Below are positions 20,651 to 47,643 of a stretch of 64,000 nucleotides of DNA, in pieces. The notes beneath the pieces are model-generated. The model was not told the origin of the DNA and did no database searches. It saw only the letters and a list, made by a program, of their open reading frames with translations. This DNA is from Gigantopelta aegis (Eukaryota > Mollusca > Gastropoda > Neomphalida > Peltospiridae), in NCBI RefSeq assembly GCF_016097555.1, contig NC_054713.1, positions 40,673,023 through 40,737,022 of the forward strand, given 5' to 3'. Each line of letters starts with the position of its first letter. Positions within the stretch are counted from its first letter, which is position 1. Position numbers and translations under genes: made by a program.

Positions 20651-21517
20651 TTAAAGGGACAGACCCTAGTTTCAACCCGTGAAAATTAACACTAAGTTTA
20701 GTTAAAGGGACAGACCCTAGTTTCAACCCGTGAAAATTAACACTAAGTTTAGTTAAAGGGACAGACCCTAGTTTCAACCCGTGAAAATTAACACTATGTT
20801 TAGTTAAAGGGACAGACCCTAGTTTCAACCCGTGAAAATTAACACTAAGTTTAGTTAAAGGGACAGACCCTAGTTTCAACCCGTGAAAATTAACACTATG
20901 TTTAGTTAAAGGGACAGACCCTAGTTTCAACCCGTGAAAATTAACACTAAGTTTAGTTAAAGGGACAGACCCTAGTTTCAACCCGTGAAAATTAACACTA
21001 TGTTTAGTTAAAGGGACAGACCCTAGTTTCAACACGTGAACATTAACACTAAGTTTAGTTAAAGGGACAGACCCTAGTTTCAACCCGTGAAAATTAACAC
21101 TATGTTTAGTTAAAGGGACAGACCCTAGTTTCAACCCGTGAAAATTAACACTAAGTTTAGTTAAAGGGACAGACCCTAGTTTCAACACGTGAAAATTAAC
21201 ACTATGTTTAGTTAAAGGGACAGACCCTAGTTTCAACACGTGAAAATTAACACTAAGTTTAGTTAAAGGGACAGACCCTAGTTTCAACCCGTGAAAATTA
21301 ACACTATGTTTAGTTAAAGGGACAGACCCTAGTTTCAACCCGTGAAAATTAACACTAAGTTTAGTTAAAGGGACAGACCCTAGTTTCAACCCGTGAAAAT
21401 TAACACTAAGTTTAGTTAAAGGGACAGACCCTAGTTTCAACCCGTGAAAATTAACACTAAGTTTAGTTAAAGGGACAGACCCTAGTTTCAACACGTGAAA
21501 ATTAACACTAAGTTTAT
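20651..21517. repeat. Tandem array, 17 x 51 bp
   Basis: The unit starts TTAAAGGGACAGACCCTAG and ends CACTAAGTTTAG, so each unit is bounded by TTAA. Units alternate between an AAG and an ATG variant over much of the array, a 102-bp higher-order period. The 17-codon unit length leaves the minus strand open for 297 codons, which is an artefact and not a gene. Confidence 0.97.
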
Positions 21518-21838
21518 TTAATCTACAAACCTGTAACACATTTGGATAAAGTTACAATTGAGTGAGTCTGTCACTTTGAAATGATGAAATACCCTCTAAA
21601 AATAGACTGAAACTCGACTCCATAACCGTTACTTCTCAGATGCACATGCGTTTTTAAAAATATGATAAATGCATTTTGTGATATTAAAAACACCAGGAAG
21701 ACCAAAAACACTTACAATGTATCGAAATTGATAATCTAAACAATTAACTCTAAGTAAGGTATGATTTCAGTTATCAAGAACGGCTATAATAGTCAAAAAT
21801 ATAACTTAGTGTTTAAAAACTAGGGTATGTCCCTTTAA
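20651..21838. mobile_element. TTAA-bounded MITE with one end expanded into a 51-bp tandem array
   Basis: Both ends read TTAAAGGGACA (20651 on; TGTCCCTTTAA to 21838). The right 320 bp match the 383-bp copy at 29653-30035 in reverse (AATCTACAAA.CTGTAACACAT, ACCCTCTAAAAATA, TGATATTAAAAACACCAGGA). The left terminal 51 bp are present 17 times here but once there. Confidence 0.9.
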
Positions 21839-21839
21839 A

Positions 21840-22960
21840 TCACAGTGTCTTGATTTTGTTATAGAGGTAGTGATTGTTGTCCGTCTACTCGTGCTACTGA
21901 TAGAATTTTAAAAACGTACAAAAATTAAACATTTAATGATAAACTACTGAATGGATGAGAGAAAAAAAAATCCATCATTCATGTGAGAAAGAAAAAAATA
22001 CACTCGGTGGTGGAAATTTCAACCCTAGGTCGGGTTGACAACTTGATCCAGGTCGAAATTAACATTCTAATTAGGGTAGGTAGGCTCAAATAAAAAATTA
22101 TTTAGTGCAGGTAGTAGTGTATAAACTTTATTTTTAAAACTGAAATATTTTATATTAAGATAGATGTACGAAGACAGCAACATTTTTCTTATGTTTAATT
22201 ATACTTACCGTAATATAATATTAAAAAAAATTAATATACGTATATATATATATATGTATGATATTAAATTTGGCCATATGATTAATAGATGTATCTGTGT
22301 GATATAAAACAAAATAATTAAACAACATAAAAACAAACAGTCTTTAAATGGAAAAGTGTTTATATCTTTATATCTAGTTCAATATCAAACAATAAAATAA
22401 AAATTTAAACAAATTAACATTACAATACACACCAAAAAAAACCCCAGATTGTCACACGTTTGCATGTGTGTACAGACATACTGTTCAACGTTTTGAACTT
22501 TAGGTCATACAAAGTATTTGGCTTGGGTCTGAGATTTTCATGGGTTTATTTTGTGGTAAACGTGGCAAAAAAATGAATGATATAGATTTTAATAATGGTT
22601 CTATGATGTCGGACAAAGAGATCATTATACAAGCTTGTGTGTCGTACTGATTTTACGAAACAAGTGTCAGGATTCTTGTATTGCCCGAGCGACATGAGAT
22701 ATCGTAAAATCAGTACGACTCACACACAAATGTAATAATTTCTTTATTATCCATATTATAATTGTTATATTTTTATGAATAACAAGGAAAGTCCAAAATA
22801 TTTCAATCATAACTAGAAGGAGATGACAAAATTATGCCACATTTCACATGCACTAGAACCAGGGAAGCAATGTCATGTCATGATATCGCTTCCCAAAATT
22901 ACGTCAGTACACTTTGTTATTACATGTGTGCTTCATATGGTTTTTATTAACTTAATTATG
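21840..22960. other. AT-rich stretch without genes
   Basis: Apart from the hairpin at 22600-22745 and a TATATATA run near 22240, nothing recognisable is seen. Confidence 0.6.
22600..22745. repeat. Hairpin-forming inverted repeat
   Basis: TGTCGTACTGATTTTACGA pairs with TCGTAAAATCAGTACGA about 40 bp further on, around a centre GCCCGAGCGACATGAGATA. A similar centre (GCGCGAGCGCGACTCGTG) lies in the hairpin at 35130-35205. Confidence 0.7.
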
Positions 22961-22977
22961 TTGAACCATGCGAATAA

Positions 22978-23240
22978 TAAATAGGGTTAAGGACCACATA
23001 GATAACGAGAGAGGAAACCCGCTGTCACCACACAATGGGCTACTCTTTCCGATTAGCAGCAAGGTATCTTTTGTATACAGCATCCCAGAGACAGGATAGT
23101 ACATACCACAGCCTTTGTTAAACCAGTTGTGGAGCACTGGCTGGAACAAGAAATAGCTCAATGGGTCCCCACCAACAGAGATCGATCCTAGACCGACTGT
23201 GCATCAAGCGAGCACTGTACCACTGAGCTGTATCCCATCC
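22978..23240 (-). mobile_element. SINE, tail 1 (truncated) - core - head 1
   Basis: GGTTAAGGACCACATAGATA, core, then head 1 on the minus strand (ACTGAGCTGTATCCC region, GAGATCGATCCTAGACCGAC). Confidence 0.85.
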
Positions 23241-23688
23241 TGTGAAAAAAGAGCAATAAAGTATATTGAGAAAGAATTTAAATGTAAAACAAAGCTAAAT
23301 GACAAAAAAATAGCTGCCTTGTTATAGTGTTTAATTTATCAGTCGGAATTTTTACTTACATTTGGAAAGCAGACAAGTGCTTTTTGCACCCCTAAAAATA
23401 GCATTAATTTCCCCAAAAAGGTACTTTAAAAGCGGTCTTGAACTTCCATAAATATCAGGACCACCAAGAAAATATTGAAGTGCAGAAAAATATGAAGAAC
23501 ACACCCTTAAAATCTCACACTCCATAAATTTGAGAAAGAACCAACAAAACATTCACTTATTTAACATGCTTCGTAGCCTTCATTGACTGACTGAACAGTA
23601 CGCTCAATTTGTGATCTCTGATTGGCCAGTACATCTAATACAGGAACTGTGATTGGCCAGTGACTTGTTACAGCATTAATAACAGTCA

Positions 23689-26600
23689 TCATGATTGGTC
23701 GGTGGTATCTTCAGTGTCTGGTGGCTTGGACGAATCACTGCGGTGCTCTGTCTTCAACTTCTTCTTTGCTCTCGTGTCGTTAAGAACCTGCTCTATCGTT
23801 CTCTGATCACGTTTGTTGTCACTTGGAACTAAAACACAAACAAAGAGTCGATACCTATAGTGTGGCCTACCCCATGGCACTAAGTAACAATTAAAAAAAA
23901 TTGTGAACTAAAAAAGAAAGTGTCATGTTTATATTACAGTTTAACACAAGGACCTGAGCTAAGAAAATTGGCTTGCCTATGAAATACCCAACACTCACAG
24001 ATAACAGAGAAGCATAGAGGAAATGAAAGCAATGTTTGGTTAATGAAAAGTGTTTTCCATGAAGTTTGAAATCCTATGACCTGCTATAGCTATTATGAAG
24101 GAAGCAAAATTTTATTTAACGATGCACTTAACACATTTTATTTATGGTTATATGGCGTCGGACATATAGTTAAGGACCATACAGATATTGGGGGAGGAAA
24201 CCCACTGTCGCCACTTCATGGACTACTCTTTTCGATTAGTAGCAAGGGATCTTTTATATGCACCATCCCATAGACAGGATAACACATACCACGGCCTTTG
24301 ATATACCAGTCATGGTGCACTGCCTGGAGCGCTTTATCACTAGGCTAAATCTCATCCCTAGCTATTTGGGGTCTATCATATGGTTATTTGAGGTTTGGTC
24401 AAAAGAGGGGAACCTGCTGCCACCATATTCAAGTTTGTTTTGTTTAACGACACCACTAGAGCACATTGCTTTATTAATCACCAGGGTACGTCCCATCCCG
24501 GGCACAACCAAGAGTGCCATTCAGTAATTACAGATTACTAATAGGTAAAATCTGTATAATCCAAATCTCTTTATATACAGACACATTTCAAGAAATAGCC
24601 CAATGGGTCCACTAATGGGGATTGATCCAAGACTGACCAAGCATCAGGCAAGTGCTTTACCACTGGGTTATACCCTGCCCCTATGTTGTTTGTAGTTTTT
24701 TTAAAGTATCTTTAGTCTGTCCCATCCTCCTACAGAAATGTTTTATGTAAATAATTTCAGTTTGGTTTGACGTATTGCAAGGCTTCTAGATTATAGTAGC
24801 CCCACTCCCATGGCTAGTGATATTCAATGTTGGGCTAGTAAATAACTAATATTGCCATGCCCGACAGGGCTTCTAGATTATGGTAGCCCCACTCCCATGG
24901 CTAGTGATATTCAATGTTGGGCTAGTAAATAACTAATATTGCCATGCCCGACAGGGCTTCTAGATTATGGTAGCCTCACTCCCATGGCTAGTGATATTCA
25001 ATGTTGGGCTAGTAAATAACTAATATTGCCATGCCCGACAGGGCTTCTAGATTATGGTAGCCTCACTCCCATGGCTAGTGATATTCATTGTTGGGCTAGT
25101 AAATAACTACTATTGCCATGCCAGACAGGGGCTTCTAGATTATGGTAGCCTCACTCCCACGGCTAGTGATATTCAATGTTGGGCTAGTAAATAACTACTA
25201 TTGCCATGCCAGACAGGGGCTTCTAGATTATGGTAGCCCCACTCCCATGGCTAGTGATATTCAATGTTGGGCTAGTAAATAACCACTATTGTCATGCCAG
25301 ACAGGGGCTTCTAGATTATGGTAGCCTCACTCCCATGGCTAGTGATATTCAATGTTGGGCAAGTAAATAACTACTACTGCCATGCCAGACAGGGGCTTCT
25401 AGATTATGGTAGCCTCACTCCCACGGCTAGTGATATTCAATGTTGGGCAAGTAAATAACTACTATTGCCATGCCAGACAGGGGCTTCTAGATTATGGTAG
25501 CCTCACTCCCATGGCTAGTGATATTCAATGTTGGGCTAGTAAATAACTAATATTGCCATGCCTGACAGGGCTTCTAGATTATAGTAGCCCCACTCCCATG
25601 GCTAGTGATATTCAATGTTGGGCAAGTAAATAACTACTATTGCCATGCCAGACAGGGGCTTCTAGATTATGGTAGCCTCACTCCCATGGCTAGTGATATT
25701 CAATGTTGGGCTAGTAAACAACTAATATTGCCATGCCTGACAGGGCTTCTAGATTATAGTAGCCCCACTCCCATGGCTAGTGATATTCAATGTTGGGCTA
25801 GTAAATAACTACTATTGCCATGCCCGACAGGGCTTCTAGATTATAGTAGCCCCACTCCCATGGCTAGTGATATTCAATGTTGGGCTAGTAAATAACTAAT
25901 ATTGCCATGCCCGACAGGGCTTCTAGATTATGGTAGCCTCACTCCCATGGCTAGTGATATTCAATGTTGGGCTAGTAAATAACTAATATTGCCATGCCCG
26001 ACAGGGCTTCTAGATTATGGTAGCCGCACTCCCATGGCTAGTGATATTCAATGTTGGGCTAGTAAATAACTAATATTGCCATGCCCGACAGGGCTTCTAG
26101 ATTATGGTAGCCTCACTCCCATTACTAGTGATATTCAATGTTGGGCTAGTAAATATCTACTATTGCTATGCCTGACGGCTACTGAAATGTTTTGGTCAAA
26201 TGTTGCAGTTAAGTCTATTTTGTAAATATGAAAATCCTGCCCTCACCCCAACACCTCAATGTTAGTGTTTTTAAGCTCTATTTTCCTTTTTAGGTGACAT
26301 ATCTGATTATTACCATTATTTAGTAAAATTTTATTAACTTAAAGTGAAGTAGGGCTAGTGAATTCTTAATTGTGGCTGGTAAATTAAAAAAATCATGGGT
26401 CCCATGGCTAGTGTATTTTATCAAAATTCTAGAAGCCTTGCATATTGAATGAATGAATGAATGAATGAATGAATGAATGAATGAATGAATGTTTAACAAC
26501 ACCCCTGCACAAAAATACCAATCCCTGCATTTGCCCGCGGCAATCGTCAATGCTGTGGAGTTTTGTTAAAAATGAAATATACTTTGTGAACTGTGGAAAC

Positions 26601-29600
26601 AGATTAAAAGTAGATATTAAGCAAAAACTGCAGTTATTAATAAGTATCTGAATCTCCTCGCCATCGGGCATTTTCGAAAATACATGCAAATTACCAACTA
26701 GGCCATTGAAATCTGTTGACTGTTCATAACACGTGCGTTGCATAGACCACTGGATTGCAGGGGGTGACAGCTTCTACATAGTTGAACCGTGGCTACCGTG
26801 CAGTACCTGTGTTTTATTTTTAGTAAAACGTTCAACATACACTCCAACAAGTCATTTGAAGAACATATACATATACCGTATATAGAGAGGTCTTCTGGTG
26901 TAGAGTGGCCTGATAAAAAAACCCATAACTCTACCAATTTACTTGGGTTTGAAAGTGGGGCATTCGGTCTTGGTGACAGATTTCCAAATAGAAATTATGC
27001 TGTTATTATAGAAAAAGATTTAATTATATAATGCATTAAATATATTCTGACACTTTGATGTAATGTAATTAAAAGATAAGCACTGAACTGGTACGTCACT
27101 GTGGACTGACTACTGAACATGATAAATTGGCATCCCCTTACAACCCCACTATTCTTGATCATGCACATATAAGCATATGAAATAGGGGAGGGGACAGCTG
27201 CCCCTCCCCCCCATCCCAGTACTGGAGCAAAACCTCAAATTTAGGCAAACATTATAGAGATATTTGGACAAAATGTGCCATCCTAAGACTTTCTACTATT
27301 AATTTCCATTATTCTACCGCAAAATTAGTTGTAATCCATGTAAAAATGCGTAGTGATTTGTTTGCTTCCACCATGCAAGAACCCTATATAGCTTTTTGCA
27401 GTAATGTTAATATGAATAAATGTTGTTATCCATGTTTGGACATTTTCGTTTAATTTGGCAAAAACCACCACTTCTTCTTACATATAATGTTCTGGTTCAA
27501 CAAACTCATATCCAAAATGATAATGGCTTTTATTCACTGAGGACATAGACTTGTCATCTGCTTGGCTATGACGTAACTTTGGGATGCACTTCCGGTAATT
27601 GTTATATTAACACTTGTGGTAATAGTAACTAAACAATAATAGTTTCTGTATCGCTATTGGTATTAATGCTATAAACATTATATTACGTCAAACCAAACTA
27701 AAATTATTTCCAAAAAACATTTTTATAGGAGGATGAGATGGACTATAGTTTGTAAATTCTGCAACCTACCAAACCCGTAAGATTTATTAGCTTTCATGTT
27801 CTTGGCGGCATCCTTGGCGGCATCCTCCCCTATAAGATGTTTGTATTTGTCGCGGTAGTTTGATGCAGGCACCGCCGTTCCTGCATTCTTCTGTTCCGCA
27901 TCGAGTCGGTCATCCAGTTCCTTCAAATGTCAGAATTTAAAATACACAATTAATTCCACTGCTAAGTAATTTATTTCTAAAAGTGTCTGATAATTTTCTC
28001 TGCATTAGTATTATATATTGATGAAAAAACAAGAAACATGATATTTGAGACCAAACTGAATTCACTACTAATGCTAAGAGTAGTTATGTCTGTATAAAAC
28101 AAGCATTCTGAGATAACTGGTACTGCTAAAGTACAGGGCTTCTAGATTATGGTAGCCCCACTCCCATGGCTAGTGATATTCAGTGTTGGGCTATTAAATA
28201 ATTACTATAACTAGCTCGACGGCTAGTGGAAACAAAACCTTGTCAAATACTGCATTTACATATTTCATAAATGTGAATATCCTGACCCTTCTTTCCACCC
28301 CAATCTAAGGATTTCTAAGCTCAATCTCCTTCTTTAGGTGACATATCTGATTATTACTATTAGTAAAATTGTATTTATTTGAAGTAGGGCTAGTGAATTT
28401 TTAATCATGGCTAGTACATTTTTAAAATCACTGATCCCATGACTAGTGAATTTTTAATCATGGCTAGTACATTTTTAAAATCACTGATCCCATGACTAGT
28501 GAATTTTTATGAAATTCTAGAAGCCATGAAGTAATACATATCCCATACTGGACCCAATAAATTTTCGTATATCCTAAATTCAAGGGCCATAACTCTGTGA
28601 GAAATGGATAAATCACCATGAAAGTTAAACTTGATCAGTAAGAGAACACAATAGAGCTATATACAAAATTTTATCTCAATACATGTATATTCAGGCTGGA
28701 AAACAAATTTCCATATCTCTTAAGTTCAAGGGTCATAACCCTTTGAAAAAATGGCTATATTGCCATGAAAATCAAACTTGATCTGTCACAGAAAATGATA
28801 AAGCTATACACAACAGTTTAGCTCAATATATTGAAGCACTGCAATAAAAAGTCAGGATATTGTTTTTCAATTATCCTAAATTCAAGGACCATAATGCTAT
28901 GGGTAAATCGCAAATTAAAGTCAACCTTATCTGTAACAGTACATCATAAAGTTATATAAAACATTTCAGCTCAATATCTCAAGACATTGTGAAAAAACAT
29001 CTGCAAAACTATATGTGAGACAGATGGATGGACAAACAGATGGAGGTGAAAGCTATATTTTTGCCCACTGGACTGAATTAGCCAGCTTTTGCACAGTGCT
29101 AGATAAATCTGTCTAGTACCCCTTTACTACCCTGGTGCTGGATGATTTCTACATACATGTACGTGTGAGGTCATAACTCATGTTTTACGACAATTGACGT
29201 CATAAGCCATGGTTTTCTGAATTCTGTTTGCCATTTCACATTATATCATTGTTTTAAAAATATTCAAACAAATTAATATTTTTAACTTTATATTTATTGT
29301 TAAGTTGTTATATTTTTGTGTCGTTGCATAAGATGGACTATATTTTTCCAATATGATTAAATGAGTTTGTAGGTGCAAGGTTTACTAATCGTTATACAAT
29401 AAACAAACTGTAGCTTACACAATTAATGTTTTATTAATGTACATATAATTAAATGGGCAAGAAAAAGAACCAATCACCATTGTGAGGTATAGTTAAGGCA
29501 ATTCCAACACTCAGTACAAAATGTTTTTGTAAGGGCCTTGGCAAACTTCGGCCTCACAAAAAACATTTTGTCCCTTGGGTTGGAACTGCCTTATCTATAC

Positions 29601-32600
29601 CTCACAATGGTGAATGATTCTTTTAGTCCCCTCTCGTTGGACTGGTAAGAGATTAAAGGGACATACCCTAGTTTTTAAAAACTAAGGCATATTTTTGACT
29701 ATTATAGCCGTTTTTGATAACTGAAATCATATTTACTTAGATTTTATTCTTTAGATTATTCATTTCCGAACATTCGAAGTTTTTTTGGTAATCCTGGTGT
29801 TTTTAATATCACAAAATGCATGTCTCATATGTTTAAAAACACAGGTGCGTCTGAGAATAAACAGTTATGCAGTCGAGTTTTAGTATATTTTTAGAGGGTA
29901 TTTCACCATTTCAAAGTCACAGACTCGTGTTTCACTCAATTGTAACTTTATTCCAAATGTGTTACAGATTTGTAGATTAAGTAAACTTAGTGTTAAAATT
30001 CATGGGCTGAAACTATGGTCTGCATGTCCCTTTAATGTATGATTGATACAGTGTATAAGAGACCACACAGTATATAATAAAGAGACTGTCAGTAATGTAG
30101 CATTAGTGCTTTTGCAACCACACCATTACTGTTATGGAAGGAAGGAAATGTTTTATTCAACGATGCTCTCAACACATTTTATTTACGGTTATATGGCGTC
30201 AGACATATGGTTAAGGACCACACAGATATTGAGAGAAAAAACCCACTGTCGCCACTTCATGGGCTACCCTTTTCGATTAGCAGAAAGGGATCTTTTATAT
30301 GCATCATCCCATAGACAGGATAGCACATACCACAGCACTGGCTGGAGCGAGAAATAGCGCAATGGGCCTAATGATGGGGATCGATCCTAGACTGACTGTG
30401 CATCACGCGAATGCTTTACCACTGGGCTACGTCCACCCTACTGTTATGGATACTGATAGCTAATCATACATGTGTAATGGGCCGAAAAAATGTAAGTTCG
30501 GCCATTCATAATTATGATTCGGTTAGAATACTAATCATTTAACTAATTTCGCAGATTGGCACGGTTAGTAACTTAAAGATGGTGGAATTCTGAGAAGGGT
30601 TACTTATTTATTATTATTATTTAAATCATTTATTAGCCACAAAATTTATTACGTATAGCAGGCTTTTTAATCGTAAAGAAGCAAACTGCTATGACAGTCA
30701 CCACCTACACTCAAAGTGGTGACCTATCACTATCCACATCAGCAATGGTATGGTTGCGGCGAAACCTCTCTATTGTTTCTCTATTGTCTGGGCTAGCTCT
30801 GCCACAAGCTACATTCACCAATTGTGAATTTTGAGAACTACTGGTGAATTTTATTTTAATTTGGAAAAAAACAATTGTGTAATAATTGATATTTTGTTGG
30901 AAAATAGCTATAGCTTTTCTTTTTTTTCTTCTTTTTTTTAGATAATGCGACGAAAAATGTTTTACCACCCAGAGCTAGCTCTAGTTTTGGATGCAGTCAG
31001 TATTTGCTGTTACTACTTATGTGTTCCCTTATTTGTTTCCATCAGCGTACATTCCCTCTGGCAGCCTCTTTTGCTTTTACTGGATCCCACTCTTCCCCAT
31101 GATGTATTAATCATCAGCTATTGGATGTCAAACATCTGGTAATTTTGACAGAGAGGAAACCCATTACAATTTTCCATTAGTAGCAAGGGATCTTTAATAT
31201 GCACCATCCCACAGACAGGATAGCACATACCATGGCCCTTGGTAGTCTTAAAGATGGAACCTGCTACATTTTTCCATTAATAGCAATGGATCTTTTATAT
31301 GCACCATCCCACGGCCAGTATAGCAGATACCATGGTCTTTGATATACCAGTCGTGATACATTGGCTGAAACAAGAAATAGCTCAATGGGTCCACTGAGGG
31401 GGATCGATCCCAGACTGCATGCGCATCAGGTGAGTGCTTTACCTCTAGTTTTGGTTGCCGTCCATATTTGCTGGTACTATTTTTGCAGGGCTTGAAACGG
31501 CCTGTGGCCAGGTCGCCAAATGTGACCAATGTTCTCTATCTTCTTTAGAGCTATAACATATGAGCCACTATTAATATCTGTATTCCACATTAAAATCTTG
31601 CTCGTGGTTCGCTTACCATAATTTGCCAACATGCATTATTATTTTTTGGGCCACCATATTTTTTGTTGAGTTTCGAACCCTGTTTATGTGTACCCATATT
31701 TGTTTCCATCAGCGTACTTTACCTTCTGTCTGGCAGCCTCTTTAGCTTTTTCTGGGTCCCACGCTTCCCCACGCTTATATGCATTCAGTTCATCGTCACC
31801 GGGACAGAATTCCTGTAAAATCAAAAACAAAAGGTTTGAGGTACCGGTACTGCTGTTTTATAAATTGCACCCCCCCCCCCCAAAAAAAAGAGAACATTTT
31901 TGTTATTTTGGAAACTCTTTAGCTTGTCATTTTATGTCAAGCTAGATATTAATAACCAAAAAACATGTTTAGTGTAGGCTGGGCAAGCTTATACTATAGC
32001 ATTGAAATTGGTATCGATTTAGCTCAAGTCTAGGCATGTGTGCAGAAAATTATATAAGAATGGGGGGGGGGGGGGATGGAATGTATGTCCACATTGTGGC
32101 AAGTGAAGCTTTTGGGGAGGGTGTGGTCATGCTTCCCCAGGAAAATACATTAAAAAAAAAGGAGAAAATATTCTTGGGCCAGGGGAGTGCATCAAACCCC
32201 AAAACCCCTACCTCTACAAACACATCTGAAGTCAAGAATATTTTTGTGTCCCAAAAACTTGAATTGTTTTGCCTTTTCATCAATAACCTGACCTCTGACA
32301 TACTGTAGTTCCCTTTGACATACTGTAGTTCCCTCTGACATACTGTAGTTCCTCTGACATACTGTAGTTCCCTCTGACATATTGTAGTTCCCCAAACATC
32401 CCACAGGTCAGATGTCAGATTATGTAAAAAAAAAAAGGCTTTACCTTTTTCCAAATCATAACATATCGATCTTCTTCTTCTATACCAAAAGAAAATGATG
32501 TGAGACCAGCAACATCCGCAATATCATGTCTGAAAAAATAGAATACAAACAACTTCATTTATAAACAAGACAAACCTGGGACCACGCTTTCTGTAATTTT

Positions 32601-35562: not shown

Positions 35563-35654
<92 letters not shown>

Positions 35655-36701: not shown

Positions 36702-37056
36702 GCTTTTTTGTGTTTTGACTCAAACTCGATGCACTCTGATAATTATTCTTGCAATTTGTGAAGTTTATAAAATGCTATAATTTAAGAATATCAAATTGTA
36801 CATCGCATCTTCCTTCTCTGTTCAAATTGCTTTAAAGAAATAAATTGAATATATTTTTTTTATAAAGCCATTGTTAAAATTCATATTAAATAAATGTTAT
36901 TGGCGTATTGCGTAATTGTTCCTGCAAACTATATCAGTATATGCTGCGCTGTTATACAAATCAGTTTAAAAAAAAGATGTAAGAGAGGACCAGTCTATGT
37001 CGTAGCCTCTTAAATCTAGACATACATCACATGTACATTTTCATTAGCGAGATGCC

Positions 37057-37187
37057 TGACGTTTTTTTACCCCAAGCATGTTCGCCCCCAGTCCATTCGC
37101 TCCCAGTCAGTTCGCCCCCAAAACGTATGTCAGTTCGCCCCCAACGCATTACCAGTTGGCCCCAATGAATTACCAGTTCGCCCCCGC
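37057..37187 (+). repeat. Iterated CAGTTCGCCCCCAA block, left
   Basis: Six to seven degenerate copies of (CA)GTTCGCCCCCAA, beginning GACGTTTTTTTACCCCAAG. The inverse block is at 39012-39086. It lies 360 bp upstream of the SPAG7 start codon. Confidence 0.85.
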
Positions 37188-37564
37188 AAAAAAAAAGAAG
37201 AAAAGAAGAAGCAACGTATGGTTTGGTGTGCCTTCGGCTGTGGCACGAGAGGCGCTATGTGTCAAAATCCCTTTGATTTAGGCTGATCAAAATGTCGTGT
37301 ATTTCAGCATGACAGTATCTTTACACGAGGTAGGGACAGTGAATACCACTTACAAAAACAAGAAGAAGGAAGGGAACTGTATTAACGTGCCCACATCCTT
37401 TCAGTTCAGGCACGCCCACCATGGACTCGGGTTCTGACTTCGCCAGCCTTCGATTCCATGGCGGGGCAAACAAGAAGAGGCCATTATCAAAGAAAGGAAA
37501 GTGTTTTATAACATGTCTTAATATGTCAAACTGTAATCACTATACAGTCTTTCTTTCTTCTTTC

Positions 37565-37795
37565 TCTTACTTATTTTCGTGTTTATATCCATTTAAGGTT
37601 CAAGCACGCTGTCCTGGGCACACACCTCAGCTATCTGAGCTGTCTGTCCAGGACAGTGGGTTAGTTGGTTAGTGGTTAGTGAAAGAGAAGAGGGTGTAGT
37701 GGCCTCACATTGAGCCCTTAAGAACTCGCTCTGGGCGAGAGCCGGTACCGGGCTGCGAACTATGTACCTACCAGCCTGTAGGCCGGTACTATACA
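37565..37795 (-). mobile_element. SINE of the head-3 family
   Basis: TTCGTGTTTATATCCATTTAAG, GCACGCTGTCCTGGGCACAC, AGAGGGTGTAGTGGCC, CTGCGAACTATGTACCTACC. The head end is lost at a (TATG)n tract. Confidence 0.88.
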
Positions 37796-37796
37796 G

Positions 37797-37884
37797 TATG
37801 TATGTATGTATGTATGTATGTATGTATGTATGTATGTATGTATGTATGTATGTATGTATGTATGTATGTATGTATGTATGTATG
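37797..37884. repeat. (TATG)n microsatellite, about 22 units
   Basis: Uninterrupted TATG/TGTA tetranucleotides between SPAG7 and NDUFB5. Confidence 0.97.
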
Positions 37885-38506
37885 CCCACAAATGACTGTC
37901 AGGTCAGATGTCGGGAATTAACGTGCTTATATCAATTTAATGTTCAAGCACATTATACAGTGTGCTCTAGGTTATTATAGTCTTGATGCTTAATTACAAT
38001 CTACTCATTTGTTAATCCCTTATGATACAAAGGACAATGAATACCACTTAGGCTACACACACATGTAAGAAGAGGCCACATCGTCTGTGGTTCAAAGCAT
38101 GATTCTTCGACCAGGAACATTTTGTTCAGTATCCACACACTAATTTTAAAACATTAAACAGTAGTCGCTAATAAATTTTATATTGACTAGAAATATTGCT
38201 AATCAAGATTTTGAGAACAAAATGTTCCCTATTTGGTGTTAGCCGACATCATAATGGTACACCATCAATCCACAATTTATTATGGGAAGAAGCCCTGATT
38301 TTAATCTAATTTAGCGTGTTTGAACCCTCAGAATATAAGCACGTTAATACCTGTCAAACAAACAAAATCCTCAATCCTGATTTTAATCAGAGGTTGGGCC
38401 CACAAAGTATTTATGCCTGCCTATTTACCAACAAAAAAACAAAAAAAAACCCAAAACAAATAATACAAACCCATGTTCCTACTTCCACTCTCTCCCTTAA
38501 AGGGAC

Positions 38507-38851
38507 ATTCCTGAGTTTGCTGCAATTTGTAAGATGTTATCGACAAACAGACTTTTTAACGATTGTATTTACATATTAGTGGCTGTATATTAAACGTGTT
38601 TCTGATCGTTCTAATATTTGTACTAGTTTAAATTTCATTTTATTTCCTAAAATATTTGTTGTACGAAATTATTTGAAGACAAAATCTAGTTTGGGCTTCT
38701 TACAAATATTAAGACGACCAGAAACACATTGAATATACAGACATTGATATTCTAAACAAGAAAATACATTTAATATACAAGTTTAATCATAAAAATATTT
38801 TATTACTCGGAAAGATCTTACAATGCAGCAAACTCAGGAATGTCCCTTTAA
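38507..38851. mobile_element. TTAA-bounded MITE, second family
   Basis: TTAAAGGGACATTCCTGAGT... at the left is inverse to ACTCAGGAATGTCCCTTTAA at the right for about 38 bp. It shares only TTAAAGGGACAT with the 20651/29653 family. Lies between the divergent promoters. Confidence 0.92.
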
Positions 38852-38942
38852 TACTTTTCAAACAAACACGCGCGCATAACAAAAACAAAAATGAACACAA
38901 CAAAACAAAACAAAACAACCTCCGCTAAAATCATCTTTATAT

Positions 38943-38945
38943 GAC

Positions 38946-39006
<61 letters not shown>
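38943..39006. repeat. (TG)n microsatellite
   Basis: About 30 TG dinucleotides, 140 bp upstream of the NDUFB5 start codon. Confidence 0.97.
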
Positions 39007-39007
<1 letters not shown>

Positions 39008-39011
39008 CTTG

Positions 39012-39086
39012 ACAAATAGTTGGGGGCGAACTGACAAGGGGCCCACTGACTTGGGGATAACTGGTTTTGGGGCGAAACGTCTGGTA
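39012..39086 (-). repeat. Iterated GGGGGCGAACTG block, right (inverse of 37057-37187)
   Basis: TTGGGGGCGAACTGACAAGG, GACTTGGGGATAACTGG, TTTTGGGGCGAAACGTC. It ends about 60 bp before the NDUFB5 start codon. The two blocks could be iterated ends of one 2-kb element. Confidence 0.85.
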
Positions 39087-39145
39087 CCCCATTAGTGTGA
39101 CGTATATGAAAAACGAGACTGTTTGTCCTTGGGCAGAACACAAAA

Positions 39146-42100
39146 ATGGTTGCAATGAGTGTGTTGCGTCCCTTACTTCAAGGGACTCGCACGCTTTTGT
39201 CAGCTGGGAAAATGTCAAAAGCAGGTAGTTACAGTTTTGCATGATTTAAAAAAAAGAGATTAAATGCATATCAATTACCAGCCTGGGTAATTTTGTGATG
39301 ATGGACATCCCTTTCACAAAACGTCCAATGTCGGCAATGATTTTCATTTCATAAAAAATAATAATTATAAAATAATATGAATTTAAGGTGCAACCTAGAG
39401 GCGAGCTCTGTAGACTGATGCCCATTAATTATAGTCATGGCTACGTTCACAACACTGAACAAACTCAGTACAAACTCTGTCTAGTCACTGCGAATCCTAA
39501 GGCTAAGGGCCTAAACCTAAACCCAACTCGACCCTAATCCTAATCCCCTAATCCTGATATGATCACCGAGATAGAGCAAGAAAGCCATTAGATATGAGCT
39601 GTATCTGCTGTTGCGACTGAATCTGTTTCGGAGCAATGTGAAGTAGAGCCAAGTTCTATGATTCATTATTATAGGTCCAACCAGAGGCTGCAATAACTTA
39701 GTATAAGTTGTAGATTTTGTCTCCGACCTTCTGTTGACCTATGGATCTGTTTGATCTACATAGTTAAAGATTTTTTTTCCTGCAATGCCTCAAGATTTGA
39801 AAAACCCCAAAAGCTGCAGGCCTGTGCATATGATGTCTTCCTGGTAAAATTATATATAGGAGCCAGTAAATCTAATTGATCAGTGTGTGATTTTTGTTTT
39901 CAGTGGTTATACGAAACATGAGCGAAAAAAGGACCATGATAGTTAAACCCTCCAGATTCGAGTGGGACAGATGGAAGGACGATGTGGTAAGTTGCAGGGT
40001 ACAGTAACTACATTGTGGCAGGGCACAATATTTCATGAGAACTGTTGTTTACGCAACTTTAAAAGCACGAGAACCGCCAATTGGTTACATTGTCAACAAT
40101 TACATTCTAACATTAAAAGTACCATACATCAGAAATGAAAGTGAAAATCAGTTTGTTTTTAAATACATTTGAAACATCAATGTAGCACAGAACTGTAGTT
40201 CAAATGTTTTAGGATTAGGTAAACCTAACTCTGCATTTATGAGAACTATATTCATGTAACCGAAAAATCGGTTACCTAAGTAAAATTCACGTTAACAGAC
40301 TTCCAGTTACCTAAGATTTTGAAATATTGTCACCTGTTGTAGAACTTCTAAATACAGTATACATATTACATTGTGTACTAAAGCATTATTCACAATCTGA
40401 TGAGTTTACAAACCAGTCGAAGGGCAGTGTGCGATTTTGAGGAGAGTCCGGGAGCCTGAGGCTTGCAAAAATCATATAGGACTCTCTAGCTTGGCTAGCA
40501 TACAAGCCCGCAAGGCTAGTTATTTGTACAAATTACATTGATTCTTTGAGATGACACAGTCAACATATATCTCAAAATCCTGGGAAACCACAGTCTTGAA
40601 TAGCGATCTTTTCCATAATTTCATGCAAAACATGTAGTGATCTTCTGATCTACTGGAGATGCATGGCAGGGCTCATTAGGGTGTTGGCGGGCTCTAAAGA
40701 TTTGCAAATAGGGAGTCTTTATGACACTGTTTTAAACCAAAATCACACACTGACAAACCAGTGGAAGGGGATTAAAAAGTTAAGTTTGTTTTATTTAACA
40801 ACACCACTAGAGTATATTGACTGTTAGTCATAGGCTATATTGCATGTCAAACATTTGGTAATTTTCACAAATAGTCTTAAAGCTAGAGGTAACCCGCAAT
40901 ATTTTTTCATTAATTAGTAACAAGAGATCTATATATGCACCAACCCACAGACAGCATAAATAATTTGGTTTGTATATATATGTACATGTAAAATTTTTTA
41001 TAATTCTACAGCCGGTTGATAACAATCTAATAATAATTTTTCCATTTTGTATGTCAGAAACATTTATTTTGTAATGTGTTTTTAATTCTGTTCTTTTCAT
41101 TTTGTTTCAGCATTACTTTCTGTTTCTTGGACTGGTACCAATGGCTCTTTTAATAACCTATGTGAATCTCTTTGTTGGTAAGTAAGTTAGGAGAAATGGA
41201 ATACTTAATGTATGTACATTTGTACTGTTTAGGTCTTAAGGGAATTAACATGCCACACACAAAACACACACACACATGCACACACACACACACATGCACA
41301 GACACACACATACACAAACAAACACACAGACACATACACACACACAGACACACACACACACACACAGACACACATACACAGACACACACACAAACAAACA
41401 CACAGACACATGCACACACACAGACACACACAGACACACATACACAGACACAGACACACACACATGCATGCTTAAACACACAGATGCATTCACACGCAGA
41501 TGCATTCACATGCACATGCATTCACACATGCACAGAGAGACAGACACAGAGAAAAAATCCACTAAGAACTACCCCTCCCAACTCATTAAACATCCATATA
41601 AGACATTTTAGTGTTGCAGTAAAACCAGTTTTGTTGGTTCCACAGACAGACAGCACCTGTCGGTCTTCGCTATGATCACTTGTTCCAGCCAGATGGTACA
41701 TCAAAGGCTGTGGTATGTGCTATCCTATCTATGGGATGGTGCATTTAAAAGATCCCTTGCTGCTAATTGAAAAGGGTAGCCCATGAAGTGGCGACAGTGG
41801 GTTTGATCCCTCAATATCTGTGTGGTCCCTATGTTCGACACCGTATAACCATAAATAAAATGTGTTGAGTGCTTTGTTAAATAAAACATTTCCTTCGCTA
41901 TGATCAAAATCAGGCATCGAAATAAGTTGAGAATGGTCGTTCAGGTTACCGGGAGGTTACCACATGTAAGAAAAGTCGAGAATGGTGTTTCGTTCTCGAC
42001 AAAAATTTCAACGTAATGGTACTTTCGTTTCCGAACATAAACCAGGCAATGCATTCCGGACTCTTGTGCAATTGCAAGCAATTATAGTCATTCCGCATTT

Positions 42101-45100
42101 AAGCAGCGTCCACTAGATGAATTTACTTCTGCGTTTCGTTTTCTCGTACGAAATTGCACCAATGTTCGTGCGCACTTGTGCAATTGCAAGCAATTATAGT
42201 CATTCCGCATTTAAGCAGCGTCCACTAGATGAATTTACTTCTGCGTTTCGTTTTCTCGTACGAAATTGCACCAATGTTCGTGCGCACTTGTGCAATTGCA
42301 AGCAATTTTGGCAATCTGCGTTTAAGCATTGCCCACTAGATAAATTTACTCCGGATTTCTTTTTCGTAACAATGTTCGCCCGCACCGATATATTTCAGAA
42401 TGTCAGCGTTTTAACATTAAAATTAGTAGTAGTAACAGGAATTCAATTCTAACTTTCATATAGTTGTGGTAACCTATAGGTTGCCAGGCTATATTTTGTG
42501 GTAACCTGTAAATGGGTTACCAGACACAATGTTTAGTTCGATGCCTGAAAATGAAGGCGAACTTCAGATCACTGTTCTGAAAAAGTGCGAGGTTAGCAAT
42601 CACATGACATTGCACACAAAATGTATTAAATATTGTATCACAAGGTGATCAATTTGCAGCTCTCCAAAATCGTTTTAGGCAAGTATGGAGGAGAGTGGGA
42701 CAGATCACTCACTTTTTCTGGCAAAGACTCATATCGGCCAGCCAGTCGCAGCTGGTCACAGGTTATATCTGGTCGCCTTCAATAAAATAATAAACTTTAT
42801 AAAATATTTCAAGACAGTACATTGTGAAGCTCTTTGTCCGATTGTGCCCAGGTTTGCGCTGTGTATGCATGCAACCCCTGCAATTAAGAGAACGAAAAAT
42901 TGCACGGCAATCTCCATGGCATTGCCATTTGCCGCATGCAATTGCAGGGGTTGTGCATGTAAAGATTATTAATGCATAAGTGCATGGGGCTGTCTATTCC
43001 TTAACGAAGGGTGACTGACAAAATGTGCCTGTATATACAGAGCACTCAAACTAATTCTTGAACAGCACACACAGTCGTGCTGGATTACACAGATGTCAGT
43101 TTGGATACGGAATTAAAGTCCTAGAACCTAGTTTCAACCTGTGAAAATGGACACTAAATCTGGAGGCAGTAGAATGAACCAAGAGTCTGTGCACGAAAAT
43201 ACACTTAAAAAGTAGTCTAGAGCCCGTCTCCATAACGATTACTTTTACATGTGCATTTTTGAAAATAAGGAAAATGCATTCTATGATATTTGAAACCCCA
43301 GGATGACCAAAAACACCACGGAATAATCTAAATAAAAAAATCTTAAGTAATGCATCAGCAACGGCTCCAATTGTGAAAAATGTGACATAGTGTCATCAGC
43401 AACGGCTCCAATTGTGAAAAATGTGACATAGTGACATCAGCAACGGCTCCAATTGTGAAAAATGTGACAGTGACATCAGGGTTTCTGCCAGAGGGTAAAA
43501 CGGGTATGGCGCCATACCCAAAGTTTTTGGCAGATGTTTTTTTTTAAAGCTAACCTTGACAAAATTAATTACTCTTATCATTACTGTATGATTTTCTTAA
43601 CCTTAACCCTAAACGTAACTCATTTTCTTTCTTGAGGAGGCACCCCCCCCCCCCCCCCCATACCCCCTGTTGACTGTGGTTGCATTCAATTCCATAGCGC
43701 CATACCCAAAAATTCCTTTCTGGCAGAAACACAGTGTGTTTAAAAGTGTTTTTTAAATTATGGGGGGTCTGGTTTTAAGTGTACTGTATTATAAAGTAAC
43801 ATTTAAATAAGACAGATTCATGTGTATTAATGTTCCTATTTTGTTTGTCTTTCTCAGGTCACGCCGAACTCTCCGATATCCCAGAGTGCTACGAACCAAA
43901 CCACTGGGAGTATTATAAGGTATGTCAGTACTAAAAAAAAAACCCCGTCTTAATGTTGACAACTTTGTGGCTTTTAAAACATTATTTTTGTTCATCTACT
44001 GACCCATTTCCAGATATCATGGTAACAGTGTCAGTAAAATCACAGAATTGAAAGTTTGTTAACCATTATGTTATGGGGTGGGGATGGATGTGTGTCAATT
44101 CACACCACCTGCTGCAGACTTACCCACCATGTTTTGTATGCTACAGTATAGACCGAAATAATTGTAGGTACGGTTAATTGTAGTAACTTAAGGTGAGATT
44201 TACAAATGGCACTATAAACTTTACAGCTGTTCCACAAAGAAGCCTTGGTACTCTTTAAGTGCCCATTTAATTATTAAAATCTTCTTTGTGAAGAAGTGCG
44301 AATTAGTTAAATAAAAAATTGGTTACCGACTTTTTGGAACATCTTGGATGTATTCATTGGTATCGGACATCCATGAAGTAACTTTGTCAGTTTATTTGCT
44401 AAACGATAGTTGCAGAATGCATAAGACATTTCCCGTATTTTTGTGTGAAGATCATATGGCCTAGAATGTTTTTCATTGAACACAGAGTTTCATAAAAGGT
44501 ATTTGGTATATATTAGATCCATATACACAAAAACTTAGTATTCTTCTTAGAAAATTATCAAATCATCACCTAACATTTGACATCTACGTTAGTGGCTTAC
44601 AACTGCCTCGTACCAATTGTACATTTGCACTGTAATTTATGATGATAGTAAGCTATGCCGCGTCATGGAACGGGCTGGCGATTGTAGAAAAAAAGTAAGG
44701 TCTCGATCGTAGGTATTTACGGCGATAGTAAGGCCCAGATCACCATAATATTTTAGTGGGCTACATCCCACTTATTAGCCAGATAAATATCCAGGTCCAC
44801 TATGTTTTTTGATCTGTTTTCAGGGCCCCATAGAGCGCTGGTTTGCACGGTACATCTATGATTCGCCAGAAAAAATACATGAGAGAAATCTACATTTTTT
44901 GAAGGAAGAAATGGAGACCAGCAAACTTAGGTAAGTGATATTGGGCCGACTTTACGAAGCCTGTTTTTCTTAACTGCAGGTCTTTTAGCATTGTACATGT
45001 ATGTAGTAACATGCGTGTAAGACATAAACAGGTGTTTTAGCATTGTACATGTATGTAGTAACACGCGTGTAAGACATAAACAGGTGTTTTAGCATTGTAC

Positions 45101-46358
45101 ATGTATGTAGTAACACGCGTGTAAGACATAAACAGGTGTTTTAGCATTGTACATGTATGTAGTAACACGCGTGTAAGACATAAACAGGTGTTTTAGCATT
45201 GTACATGTGTGTTGTAACACACATGTAAGACATAAACAGGTGTTTAAACATTGTACATGTGTGTAGTTACACACATGTAAGACATAAACTGGTGTTTTAG
45301 CATTGTACATGTATGTAGTAACACACGTGTAAGACAAACAGTTGTTTTAGCATTGTACACGTATGTAGTAACACGTGTAAGACATAAACAGGTGTTTCAG
45401 CATTGTACATGTATGTAGTAACACACGTGTAAGACATAAACAGGTGTTTTAGCATTGTACATGTATATAGTAACACACGTGTAAGACATAAACGGGCTTT
45501 GTAAATTCAGCTCTTAATGTTTACATTTTTGTATTTTATTTCATTTCTCCCAATCTTGTCCAATCCTTTTTAGTCTATGAGATATAATAGTTTAACTCTT
45601 TGACAATCCCCAGTTTATTGAAATGTTTGCATAGCTCTTTACAGTGTTTTCAAACTATATTTAATTTGTTTTAACAATACCACTGGAGCGCATTGATTTA
45701 TTAATCATCAGCTATTAGTTTTGAGATATTTTGTAATTCTGACATATGGTCTCGCTGCATTTTTTCATTAGTAGGAAAGGATCTTTTTATGTCCACCATC
45801 CCACAGGCAGGATAGCACATACCACAGTCTTTGATATATCATTCATGGTGCACTGGCTGTAATGGAAAATGGCCCAATGGGTTATTTCTTGTTCTAGCCA
45901 GTGCACAGTGTCTGTACATATAAAAGATCCCTTGCTACTAATGGAAACATGTAGCGGGTTTCCTCTCTAAGACTATGTCAGAATTACAAAATGTCTGACA
46001 TCCAATAACTGATGATTAATAAATCAATGTGCTCCAGTGGTGTCATTAAACAAAACAAACTTCTTCGTCTTTGGAGGATCTGTCTGATAAACCATGGTCA
46101 TCATTAAGGGTTTTGAAAAATTCAAGATGGCATCCATAATGGCTGCCATATATTCTATGTTTTTGGCTATAACATGCACCATATTAAAGCCAGGATGTTT
46201 GTTACTTCAGGAAACTGGAGAAGAAGGTGAAAGAAGTGATGTACCAGAGACAGGACTACAAAGGCTGGTATTTTATTCCCATGGACAAGTCGAGGATCGA
46301 AATGGCCCGGGAAGCTGAACGGGAAACGGCAGCTTTGAGAGGCTCAGGACCAATATGA
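39146..46358 (+). CDS. NDUFB5: NDUFB5 (SGDH), accessory subunit of mitochondrial complex I
   Basis: Coding exons are 39146-39224, 39904-39986, 41111-41177, 43858-43919, 44824-44930 and 46211-46358. All have GT..AG introns and consistent phases, giving 181 aa (human about 189). Exon 1 encodes a Ser/Leu/Arg-rich mitochondrial presequence (MVAMSVLRPLLQGTRTLL). Exon 2 carries the family block IVKPSRFEWDRW. Exon 3 encodes one transmembrane helix (about residues 57-77, LFLGLVPMALLITYVNLFV). Exon 4 gives GHAELSDIPE..PNHWEYYK, exon 5 gives PIERWFARYIYDSPEKIHER, and exon 6 ends in a charged C-terminus with WYFIPMDK. These are the conserved landmarks of a B-type subunit of NADH:ubiquinone oxidoreductase, a single-pass protein of the inner-membrane arm. 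Introns 3 and 5 carry three tandem arrays and a head-to-head SINE pair. The promoter is close to a repeat block (39015-39085). Confidence 0.97.
40777..40970 (-). mobile_element. SINE, tail 2 - core, head lost
   Basis: AGTTTGTTTTATTTAACAAC, GCATGTCAAACATTTGG, CAAGAGATCTATATATGCACC. In NDUFB5 intron 2. Confidence 0.8.
41257..41545. repeat. (CA)n-rich tract in NDUFB5 intron 3
   Basis: CACA with CAGACA, CATACA and CATGCA variants over nearly 300 bp. Long open frames on both strands here are low-complexity artefacts. Confidence 0.96.
41679..41892 (+). mobile_element. SINE, core - tail 1, 5'-truncated, 14-bp target duplication
   Basis: CTTCGCTATGATCA at 41665-41678 and 41893-41906 encloses core (AAGATCCCTTGCTGCTAATT) and tail 1. 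The 5' truncation inside an intact duplication is typical of target-primed reverse transcription. Confidence 0.92.
41911..42547. mobile_element. MITE (TIR CAGGCATCGAA) with internal 112-bp array
   Basis: CAGGCATCGAAATAAG at the left is inverse to TTAGTTCGATGCCTG at the right. AAAAT abuts both sides. The centre holds three 112-bp units. In NDUFB5 intron 3, immediately after the SINE at 41679-41892. Confidence 0.88.
42063..42385. repeat. Tandem array, about 3 x 112 bp
   Basis: CTTGTGCAATTGCAAGCAAT starts units at 42063, 42175 and 42287. Units 1 and 2 are nearly identical; unit 3 has diverged. Confidence 0.95.
43107..43476. mobile_element. TTAA-type MITE, third, damaged copy with a 3 x 40-bp array
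   Basis: AACCTAGTTTCAACCTGTGA, TGGACACTAAATCTG, TCTCCATAACGATTACTTT and AATGCATTCTATGATATTTGA match 20651-21838 in order. Its subterminal CAACGGCTCCAATTGTGAAA block is triplicated (43354-43475). A GTTTCTGCC MITE follows at 43477. Confidence 0.8.
43477..43736 (-). mobile_element. MITE of the GTTTCTGCC family (copy 3, reverse)
   Basis: CAGGGTTTCTGCCAGAGGG at the left, then GGGTATGGCGCCATACCC, TTAACCCTAAACG, a C run, and CTGGCAGAAACAC at the right. Confidence 0.88.
44943..45513. mobile_element. MITE (TIR GGGCYGAMTTTACRAAGCC) with internal 52-bp array, 12 nt past the NDUFB5 exon 5 donor
   Basis: GGGCCGACTTTACGAAGCC at the left is inverse to GGCTTTGTAAATTCAGCTC at the right. A 100-bp relative without the array is at 47158-47257. 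It starts 12 nt after the exon 5 donor at 44930/44931. Confidence 0.88.
44983..45492. repeat. Tandem array, about 10 x 52 bp
   Basis: The unit contains TTTTAGCATTGTACATGTAT and GTAAGACATAAACAGGTG. The middle of each unit, ACACGCGTGT, is a palindrome whose sequence varies between units. Confidence 0.96.
45658..46062. mobile_element. Head-to-head pair of tail-2 SINEs
   Basis: 45658-45888 is a tail 2 - core SINE on the minus strand (ACCACTGGAGCGCATTG...GGTGCACTGGCTG). 45889-46062 is core - tail 2 on the plus strand (TTCTAGCCAGTGCAC...CTGACATCCAATAACTG). The joined unit is a long palindrome ending 148 bp before NDUFB5 exon 6. Confidence 0.88.
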
Positions 46359-47157
46359 AGGAGGGATTAAAAAACAAGGAATATTACTGTGTGTTTAACA
46401 TTGTAGGTGCCATTTTGTTTAAAAAAAACTGTTCAGGACAAGGACAAAAAAAAAGAAAAAGAGGAGAATATGCAGTGCATTCATATATTTTTTATTATGG
46501 AGTGGTAACCAATTTTAAAGCAATCATTGTGTTTGGTTAATGTTTAGGACAAGGAAAAATAATGATTTAGATATGTACTTTACAGATTTATAACTGTAGT
46601 GGATAGATTAACAAAACCCCCACAACAATGATTACACTGTATTTCCAATGATTGAAAAGCGGTGAGTAATTTAATAAATTGGTAGACACGTGTGCTCAAT
46701 CTTGGTCAAATTCAAAACAAGCGAGGCATTGTGGATATCTGAATGCTAGACTAAAACAAAACATGGATATCAAAGTTAAAAGTTAATTTAAAAACAAAGT
46801 GTACAATATCATGCACAATACAATGACTTCATTCTAAAACGGTGCGAGTTTGAATGGCTTCAAATGACATGACAATTCATTGGATTAGTGCATGAACATC
46901 ATTTAAAATTGATTTCGCGATATTGGTTTCATTTCAGTCATTGTGAAAACAGCAAAATATGTAATAAAAGTTAACACGGTCAGTATGCAAAACTTCTTTT
47001 TCATGTGGGTTGTTTTTGTCTGGTATTCAGGTGTGCACTTCTACAATATATTTTGAGATTTATTGTAGAATTTTTGGAAAATGTCAATTTAATAACACCG
47101 CTGTCAAAGTGTAGGTTTTTCCCCCCACTCTTTATGGATGCTAAAGGTTGTAAATAA

Positions 47158-47257
47158 TGGGCTGAACTTACAAAGCCTGTTTTTGTGTTACATGTGTGTA
47201 ATATCGATAATTAGTAAACACCTGTTTACGGAAAACAGGTTTTGCAAATTCAGCCCA
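47158..47257. mobile_element. Compact MITE, single-copy relative of 44943-45513
   Basis: TGGGCTGAACTTACAAAGCC and the inverse of TGGGCTGAATTTGCAAAACC. The interior keeps GTTACATGTGTGTAA and AAACACCTGTTT, which are parts of the 52-bp unit. Confidence 0.88.
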
Positions 47258-47643
47258 ATATCACTATTTGCAAGAGTGGATATTCCTATAAACGAGTGGT
47301 TTCAAGTAAAAAGTTTCATTGACAGATCAGTTTGACAAAATGTTTTTGAAGTGTAAATAAATGAGTGAATATTGTGTCCTGACTTGTTATATTTTAGAAC
47401 AGAATCTCTATTATTTCACACAATAATTATAATATATGGTTATTCAGGGGTCGAAATTTAAGACAACAGGTTACTATAGTTAAATGGATATTTACCTTAG
47501 GTAACAGGTTGTTTGTTAATCATATGCAAGTTATTTGACACTCCATGTCTATTAGTTGTTTTAAATTAACAGATTTTTCAATGAGATAGTATTCTTATAT
47601 TTAATTACCGATTCTTTTATTTAATTACTGAGCAATGCATCAA

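Follow-up and report, generated by a model that had tools for sequence, protein, structure and literature searches.

How do tandem arrays come to lie inside small inverted-repeat elements? The question is raised by a 64,000-nucleotide stretch of the genome of the gastropod Gigantopelta aegis (NCBI RefSeq assembly GCF_016097555.1, contig NC_054713.1, positions 40,673,023 to 40,737,022 of the forward strand), hereafter the window. In it a sequence-only reading had placed all five longer tandem arrays, except for a damaged copy at 43107, within matching terminal inverted repeats (TIRs) of four unrelated families of miniature inverted-repeat transposable elements (MITEs), here called F1 to F4, and had proposed such elements as a general seedbed for arrays. 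Tandem Repeats Finder (TRF) returned 31 rows for the window, which merged, at a period of 35-200 bp and a score of at least 150, into eight arrays with periods of 51, 87, 53, 147, 39, 112, 41 and 52 bp; all five arrays named earlier were recovered by TRF. The answer proposed below concerns mainly F1, a family that targets TTAA and whose repeated unit is its own tip. TTAA elements, among them F1 itself, insert preferentially at the TTAA at position 52 of F1, and we favour insertion at this site as the seed of the F1 arrays.

The F1 element at 20651..21838 (forward strand), of the type referred to as young, consists of 17 copies of the 51-bp left tip followed by a single right part, with the TIR TTAAAGGGACAKACCCTAGTTT and TTAA at both ends. 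The unit of its array (20651..21521, forward strand, 17.1 copies) begins with the terminal TTAAAGGGACA and extends from the TTAA of the terminus as far as the one at element position 52. A single-unit relative lies at 29653..30036 on the reverse strand, in the orientation opposite to the 20651 copy, and TTAA-AGGGA stands at both ends of both copies. When TIR pairs were sought with a gapped inverted-repeat finder (score of at least 50) against three first-order Markov controls, 60 pairs were found in the window, many of them pairings among F1 array units, and none in the controls. The F1 ends stand on their own score (22-bp TIR at 20651/21838, score 59). Those of F2, F3 and F4 (scores 45, 41 and 38; p 0.07, 0.17 and 0.27 against random intervals) are not outstanding alone; these families were accepted as elements because relatives have common ends, their own ends being too short.

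The arrangement seen at 20651 recurs widely in the genome searched (1,149,253,464 bases in 5216 contigs). A single-unit F1 query gave 7041 first-look candidates, unconfirmed as copies; all 40 of those scored had at least 90% identity, and 32 of the 40 came within two bases of both query ends. The right edge of an F1 array, taken as the pattern unit-unit-TTAATCTACAAA with up to three mismatches, occurred at 298 places and the reversed control at none. About 100 of these places were listed, and eight loci for reading were taken from those. In five of six F1 loci read (L001-L005 and L008) the array starts at the terminus, that of L004 starting five bases earlier, and in five of the six it ends at TTAA-TCTACAAA, with TTGA in the sixth. 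L001, L002 and L008 have a complete right part, that of L004 is interrupted, and L003 and L005 retain part of it. In the eight further array loci, whose left flanks differ, 2, 2, 5, 5, 6, 7, 11 and at least 12 units were counted; within the stretch read each has a single right part, and the right terminus is visible in six of them, two being truncated. The longest single TRF array of F1 has 49.7 units (L005).

The TTAA that bounds the unit is also where other elements enter. The junction TGTCCCT-TTAA-TCTACAAA, which marks the right side of an insertion at F1 position 52, has 28 exact matches and 71 with one mismatch, against none for its reversed control. For the TTAA at position 36 the figures were just 2 exact and 3 with one mismatch, with a pattern two letters longer and thus slightly stricter; the other internal TTAAs of F1 lie at positions 188, 218, 278 and 347. 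Among the 26 of the 28 exact places that were read (L049-L074), the nested element was of the type of m38497 (see below) in 19, an F1 in the same orientation in three (L053, L057 and L072), an F1 in the opposite orientation in two (L062 and L065), and another TTAA element in two (L070 and L071). The last has the end ..TGTCCCTTTAA upstream of the junction and is distantly F1-like in L071. Same-orientation F1 nests are two-unit 51-bp tandems. Array-free copies have one TTAA at position 52 and nested elements have one on each side, which demonstrates duplication of the TTAA target. With this duplication, its TTAA target and its terminal AGGGA, a form of AGGRR, F1 appears by sequence features to be a T2-MITE of the Kolobok type. 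A Helitron or Helentron with central repeats was rejected for F1, which has TIRs and a TTAA duplication; so was a Foldback element, the array being one-sided and the right end single.

The element m38497 (38497..38851, forward strand) is array-free and has F1-like termini (TTAAAGGGACATTCC..); the position-52 TTAA of F1 is a frequent nesting site of its relatives. An older F1 type, which reads TTAAAGTC.. where the young type has TTAAAGGG.., is represented in the window at 43107..43481 (forward strand). This copy had been described as damaged, and its right end is indeed unrecognisable. It carries the 41-bp array (43353..43479, forward strand, 3.1 copies), whose unit comes from the F1 right subterminal stretch. 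Enclosure by matching TIRs thus held for four of the five named arrays and not for this one. Directly after the 41-bp array stands one of three window copies of the repeat TTTCTGCCAGAGGGTAAAACGGGTATGGCGCCATACCC (43482-43519, 13022-13059 and 54622-54659), with a reverse-complement end near 43735, as judged by eye.

Between the tip of F1 and an internal TTAA, the target of the family, there are 51 bp, and at this TTAA F1 would insert into itself. The observed unit boundaries, hot target, TTAA duplication and same-orientation nests suggest a route from there to arrays. One F1 would insert into the position-52 TTAA of another in the same orientation, placing two 51-bp units head to tail; recombination would then remove one of the two downstream parts; and unequal exchange would yield n units and one right end, the form seen in the genome, where elements combine a single right part with anything from 2 to about 50 units. 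Nest, loss and expansion would have followed in this order. That a TTAA-targeting MITE builds its own satellite in this way, the distance from terminus to internal TTAA setting the unit length, is in our judgement a reasonable possibility, though short of probable. The broader proposal, that MITEs keep both ends while direct repeats near an end, newly made or already existing, expand by unequal exchange or slippage, we hold tentatively as well, at somewhat less than an even chance.

A second family also repeats its tip. The F2 element at 24778..26440 (forward strand) has 16 copies of an 87-bp left tip between the ends CAAGGCTTCTAGA and TCTAGAAGCCTTG; the family form of the ends is CAGGG..CCCTG, which we take to be hAT-like. 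The 87-bp array (24781..26176, forward strand, 16.0 copies by TRF) has a unit that begins with the terminal CAGGGCTTCTAG, and a second 87-bp array occurs at L047:6586-6898. Since the units of F1 and F2 start at the terminus, the TIR itself is repeated, and the view that the arrays are internal to their elements fails for the 51-bp and 87-bp arrays; internality of all window arrays was dropped. Both F2 ends were present in 30 fetched loci, with up to two mismatches in the right 10-mer, one locus (L021) being doubtful. By eye, eight of the 30 have flanking direct repeats, of 7 bp at L011, L016, L018, L024, L028, L030 and L033 and of 8 bp at L026; a fixed-frame scan for an F2 target duplication gave no consistent length.

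Other F2 arrays seem to have had another seed. Three direct repeats of the type GGCTAGTGAATTTTTA occupy subterminal positions in array-free F2 copies. The distance between the first and the third is the length of the 53-bp unit found in L009-L012 and L023, and that between the second and the third the length of the 32-bp unit found in L019 and L021. Such arrays occur in seven of the 30 fetched copies, among them the window's own (L009), at 28134..28528 on the forward strand, which has a single tip unit and a 53-bp array of 2.3 copies at 28390-28509 near its right end. As these units are existing repeat spacings, slippage or unequal exchange between subterminal direct repeats would suffice for the 53- and 32-bp units, and for these alone we propose it. 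The copy at 28134 had been listed among array-free relatives, which the TRF array contradicts; the other relatives so listed stood, namely 29653, with its single unit, 55923..56266 (F2, forward strand, both ends present, no array in the TRF table) and 47157 (F4). Array types vary between copies of one family.

In F3 and F4 the arrays are internal. The F3 element (41910..42548, forward strand) has the TIR TCAGGCATCGAAMTAA and a 112-bp array of 2.6 copies at 42063-42350. Its right terminus was reached within two bases in 37 of 40 scored copies, both ends were present in the three further loci read, and the TIR was found in four of four loci; the 112-bp array recurred in all three further loci, which had been found with a query containing the array. 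By eye, and with one end base allowed to shift, a 5-bp direct repeat flanks F3 in four of four loci. The F4 element (44940..45517, forward strand) has a diverged TIR (GGGCCGACTTTACGAAGCCTGTTT) and a 52-bp array of 10.0 copies at 44977-45493; its ends rest on one relative, short and array-free, at 47157..47260 (forward strand, TIR GGGCTGAACTTACAAAGCCTGTTTT), and this relative, unlike the array copy, has AAT on both sides. Downstream of the F3 and F4 arrays, at 46212-46358, is a coding stretch that we take to be the last of an NDUFB5-like gene; the arrays are perhaps intronic in it.

Whether every array of the window lies in an element depends on where the line is drawn. The five named arrays do, but arrays of 147 bp (1.8 copies, 28559-28828), 20/39 bp (32292-32392) and 26 bp (57547-57932), all reported by TRF, lie outside recognised elements, so that "all" hinges on the cut-off. 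Recognised elements make up 17% of the non-array sequence of the window, and the chance of five of five arrays falling inside is 1.5e-4, a post hoc figure, since the element list was made by hand and several elements were found by searching near arrays.

The sequence-only reading had further suggested that enrichment of arrays within TIR pairs be checked genome-wide. This was done on a small scale: ten 10-kb stretches were drawn at random from this genome, one being half masked (5 kb), and arrays were counted at a period of 35-200 bp and a score of at least 150. Only 1 of 18 arrays lay in a recognised TIR element (1 of the 13 with units of 40-120 bp), and this was the F2 87-bp array at L047. 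For the flanks, the best inverted repeat around each array was set against 150 length-matched random intervals (up to 1200 bases, taken from window and random stretches alike, N masked); the sample is small, and the test has little power for TIRs shorter than about 20 bp. Among the random arrays, 6 of 18 reached a score of 38 (5.7 expected) and 5 reached 41 (3.4 expected), while none reached 45 (2.2 expected) or 50 (1.4 expected), so that no excess was seen. Among the window arrays the numbers were 5 of 8 at 38 (2.5 expected), 4 at 41 (1.6 expected), 3 at 45 (1.1 expected) and 1 at 50 (0.7 expected), one of these matches, at 32292, being A-rich. Six of the 18 random arrays came from one stretch (L044) and are therefore not independent; they form a cluster of periods 67 to 131, including one of 41 copies of 67 bp, within which no TIR element was recognised.

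Other repeats of this genome also form tandems. The 158-bp array of L046 (8142-8486) and the 147-bp array of the window (28559-28828) belong to the same dispersed repeat, which contains ..AAGGGCCATAACTCTG.., forms tandems with a copy length of about 150 bp, lies outside TIR elements and occurs also at L019:480-605. The unit of the 82-bp array in L045 (6524-7353) has relatives at 44666-44730 in the window, where it stands singly, and in L058, L043 and L031, and is thus another dispersed repeat that becomes tandem. Elsewhere in the window, at 881-1368, two 107-bp arms, 99% complementary and separated by a 274-nt spacer, form a very young long inverted repeat.

These data bear on the possibility that such arrays arise anywhere and that the window merely happens to have them in elements. 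The single array in a recognised element among 18, together with flanking inverted repeats that are not in excess, speaks for such a coincidence; the arrays that F1, F2 and F3 carry at other loci too speak against it and make the array in an element a property of particular families. We regard mere coincidence as unlikely. This recurrence is supported, whereas the idea of a general seedbed is not: most sampled random arrays could not be placed in recognised TIR elements, and the random sample points towards what had been named as refuting it, namely that most arrays of this size lie outside such elements. MITEs count as one of the sources of arrays in this genome, and a general rule is not shown. 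Selection is another candidate: repeated tips would offer extra binding sites for the transposase, array-bearing copies would move better and spread from one founder, and the way in which the first duplication arose would be irrelevant. The 298 array edges and the presence of the TIR inside the repeated F1 unit are in its favour, as are the TIR tandem repeats of Galileo, which hold additional transposase binding sites according to the part of PMC4079207 drawn on here. Yet the 7041 single-unit candidates, first-look and unconfirmed as they are, do not suggest that arrays are needed, and array-bearing F1 copies lack a common diagnostic site; we consider selection quite improbable.

Several results weigh against self-insertion as the origin of the F1 arrays. 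The outer element is of the older type in each of the five nests of F1 in F1, its unit being about 80% like that of the inner one, and a young F1 was the outer element only around m38497-type insertions (L050, L056, L060 and L073); no young-in-young nest was present among the 26 junction places read. None of the F1 elements read combined two right parts with more than two units, and in the two 2-unit elements read the units are nearly identical, with 1 and 2 differences. Right parts match the consensus at 91-96% in 17 of 19 F1 copies (11 array-bearing, 8 array-free), the outliers L080 (83%) and L083 (75%) being truncated copies, and outer copies of nests at 83% (L053) and 86% (L057), L072 aligning poorly (48%). 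No right-part site splits array-bearing from array-free copies (119 tests, smallest uncorrected p 0.018), a result compatible both with one founding event followed by spread and with many separate events. Finally, the F2 counterpart of the nest junction had 0 exact matches in the genome, in an exact-only search of low power. The nests were dropped as direct parents of the arrays: their outer elements being older, they show the intermediate in principle and not in the array-bearing lineage. Some of these points suit a TTAA microhomology instead, in which a template switch or end joining in replication, or gap repair after excision, would join terminal and internal TTAA and double the 51-bp tip in one step, the two-unit element then spreading and expanding. 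A 4-bp match would be enough; near-identical units, the lack of young-in-young nests and of the F2 nest junction would follow; and the 87-bp junction of F2 has a short match (..CCCGAC-GGCTAG versus CAGGGCTTCTAG). What microhomology alone leaves unexplained is the outer breakpoint exactly at the terminus in two families and the use of position 52 although the position-36 TTAA matches equally well. Given the lack of young-in-young nests, we judge microhomology possible and nearly as likely as insertion seeding. For F1 we nevertheless favour insertion seeding at the position-52 TTAA, followed by unequal exchange.

MITE-borne arrays as seen here are a variant of a phenomenon known from frogs, clams and corals, compared below on the basis of portions of the cited papers. 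Xmix of Xenopus, a T2-MITE presumed to be Kolobok, has a TTAA target, terminal AGGRR and an amplified Xstir segment (PMC6004289; PMC12628747). F1 shares the target, and its AGGGA fits AGGRR, but Xstir is described as an amplified internal segment (PMC6004289), while the F1 unit spans terminus to internal TTAA; the two are likened by description only. The coral MITEs named CMITE likewise target TTAA and form tandem arrays, in which the TTAA between direct repeats is hit by further insertion (CMITE-IN); unlike in F1, full-sized elements are repeated, replication slippage was inferred, and the termini and relation are piggyBac-like (PMC2872659). Bivalve pearl MITEs (CvA, DTC84) have short internal, satellite-like arrays of up to six monomers and so resemble F3 as mollusc MITEs with internal tandem repeats; they differ from F1 and F2 in that the arrays are internal and a terminal unit is not described in the portion of PMC5139131 considered. 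In the Foldback elements Tetris and Galileo, tandem repeats derive from part of long TIRs on both sides, whereas F1 repeats one tip and has a single right end (PMC4079207). A further parallel is offered by tandem dimers of transposable elements, in which insertion preference produces expandable tandem copies by double insertion (McGurk and Barbash, 2018, via PMC12628747). There, elements of the same type insert repeatedly at one site; in F1 the target is an internal site close to one end, with the result that the tip alone would be repeated.

A 2025 review lists as routes slippage, the stem-loop models of Angel and Xstir, capture for miDNA4, rolling circles, double insertion and recombination between long terminal repeats (PMC12628747); the first part of its section 4 does not include insertion at a target site within the element close to its tip, nor was such a proposal recognised in the literature searched, whose coverage was limited. 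Further satellites from TIR elements are on record (PMC4079207; PMC9659126; PMC6947457), and 75.61% of the Pacific oyster satellitome is similar to Helitron central repeats (PMC8268682). What is new here is the testable idea of a unit set by an internal target, the rest being known in kind.

The small random sample, without a sign that most such arrays come from MITEs, tempers any wider claim. For the question of how satellite arrays are born, F1 offers a family in which elements with one unit, with two and with about 50 occur alongside nests within one genome. It gives the prediction that a unit runs from terminus to internal target site; if this is true, the unit length of an array would be predictable from the target sites inside the element, in any genome.

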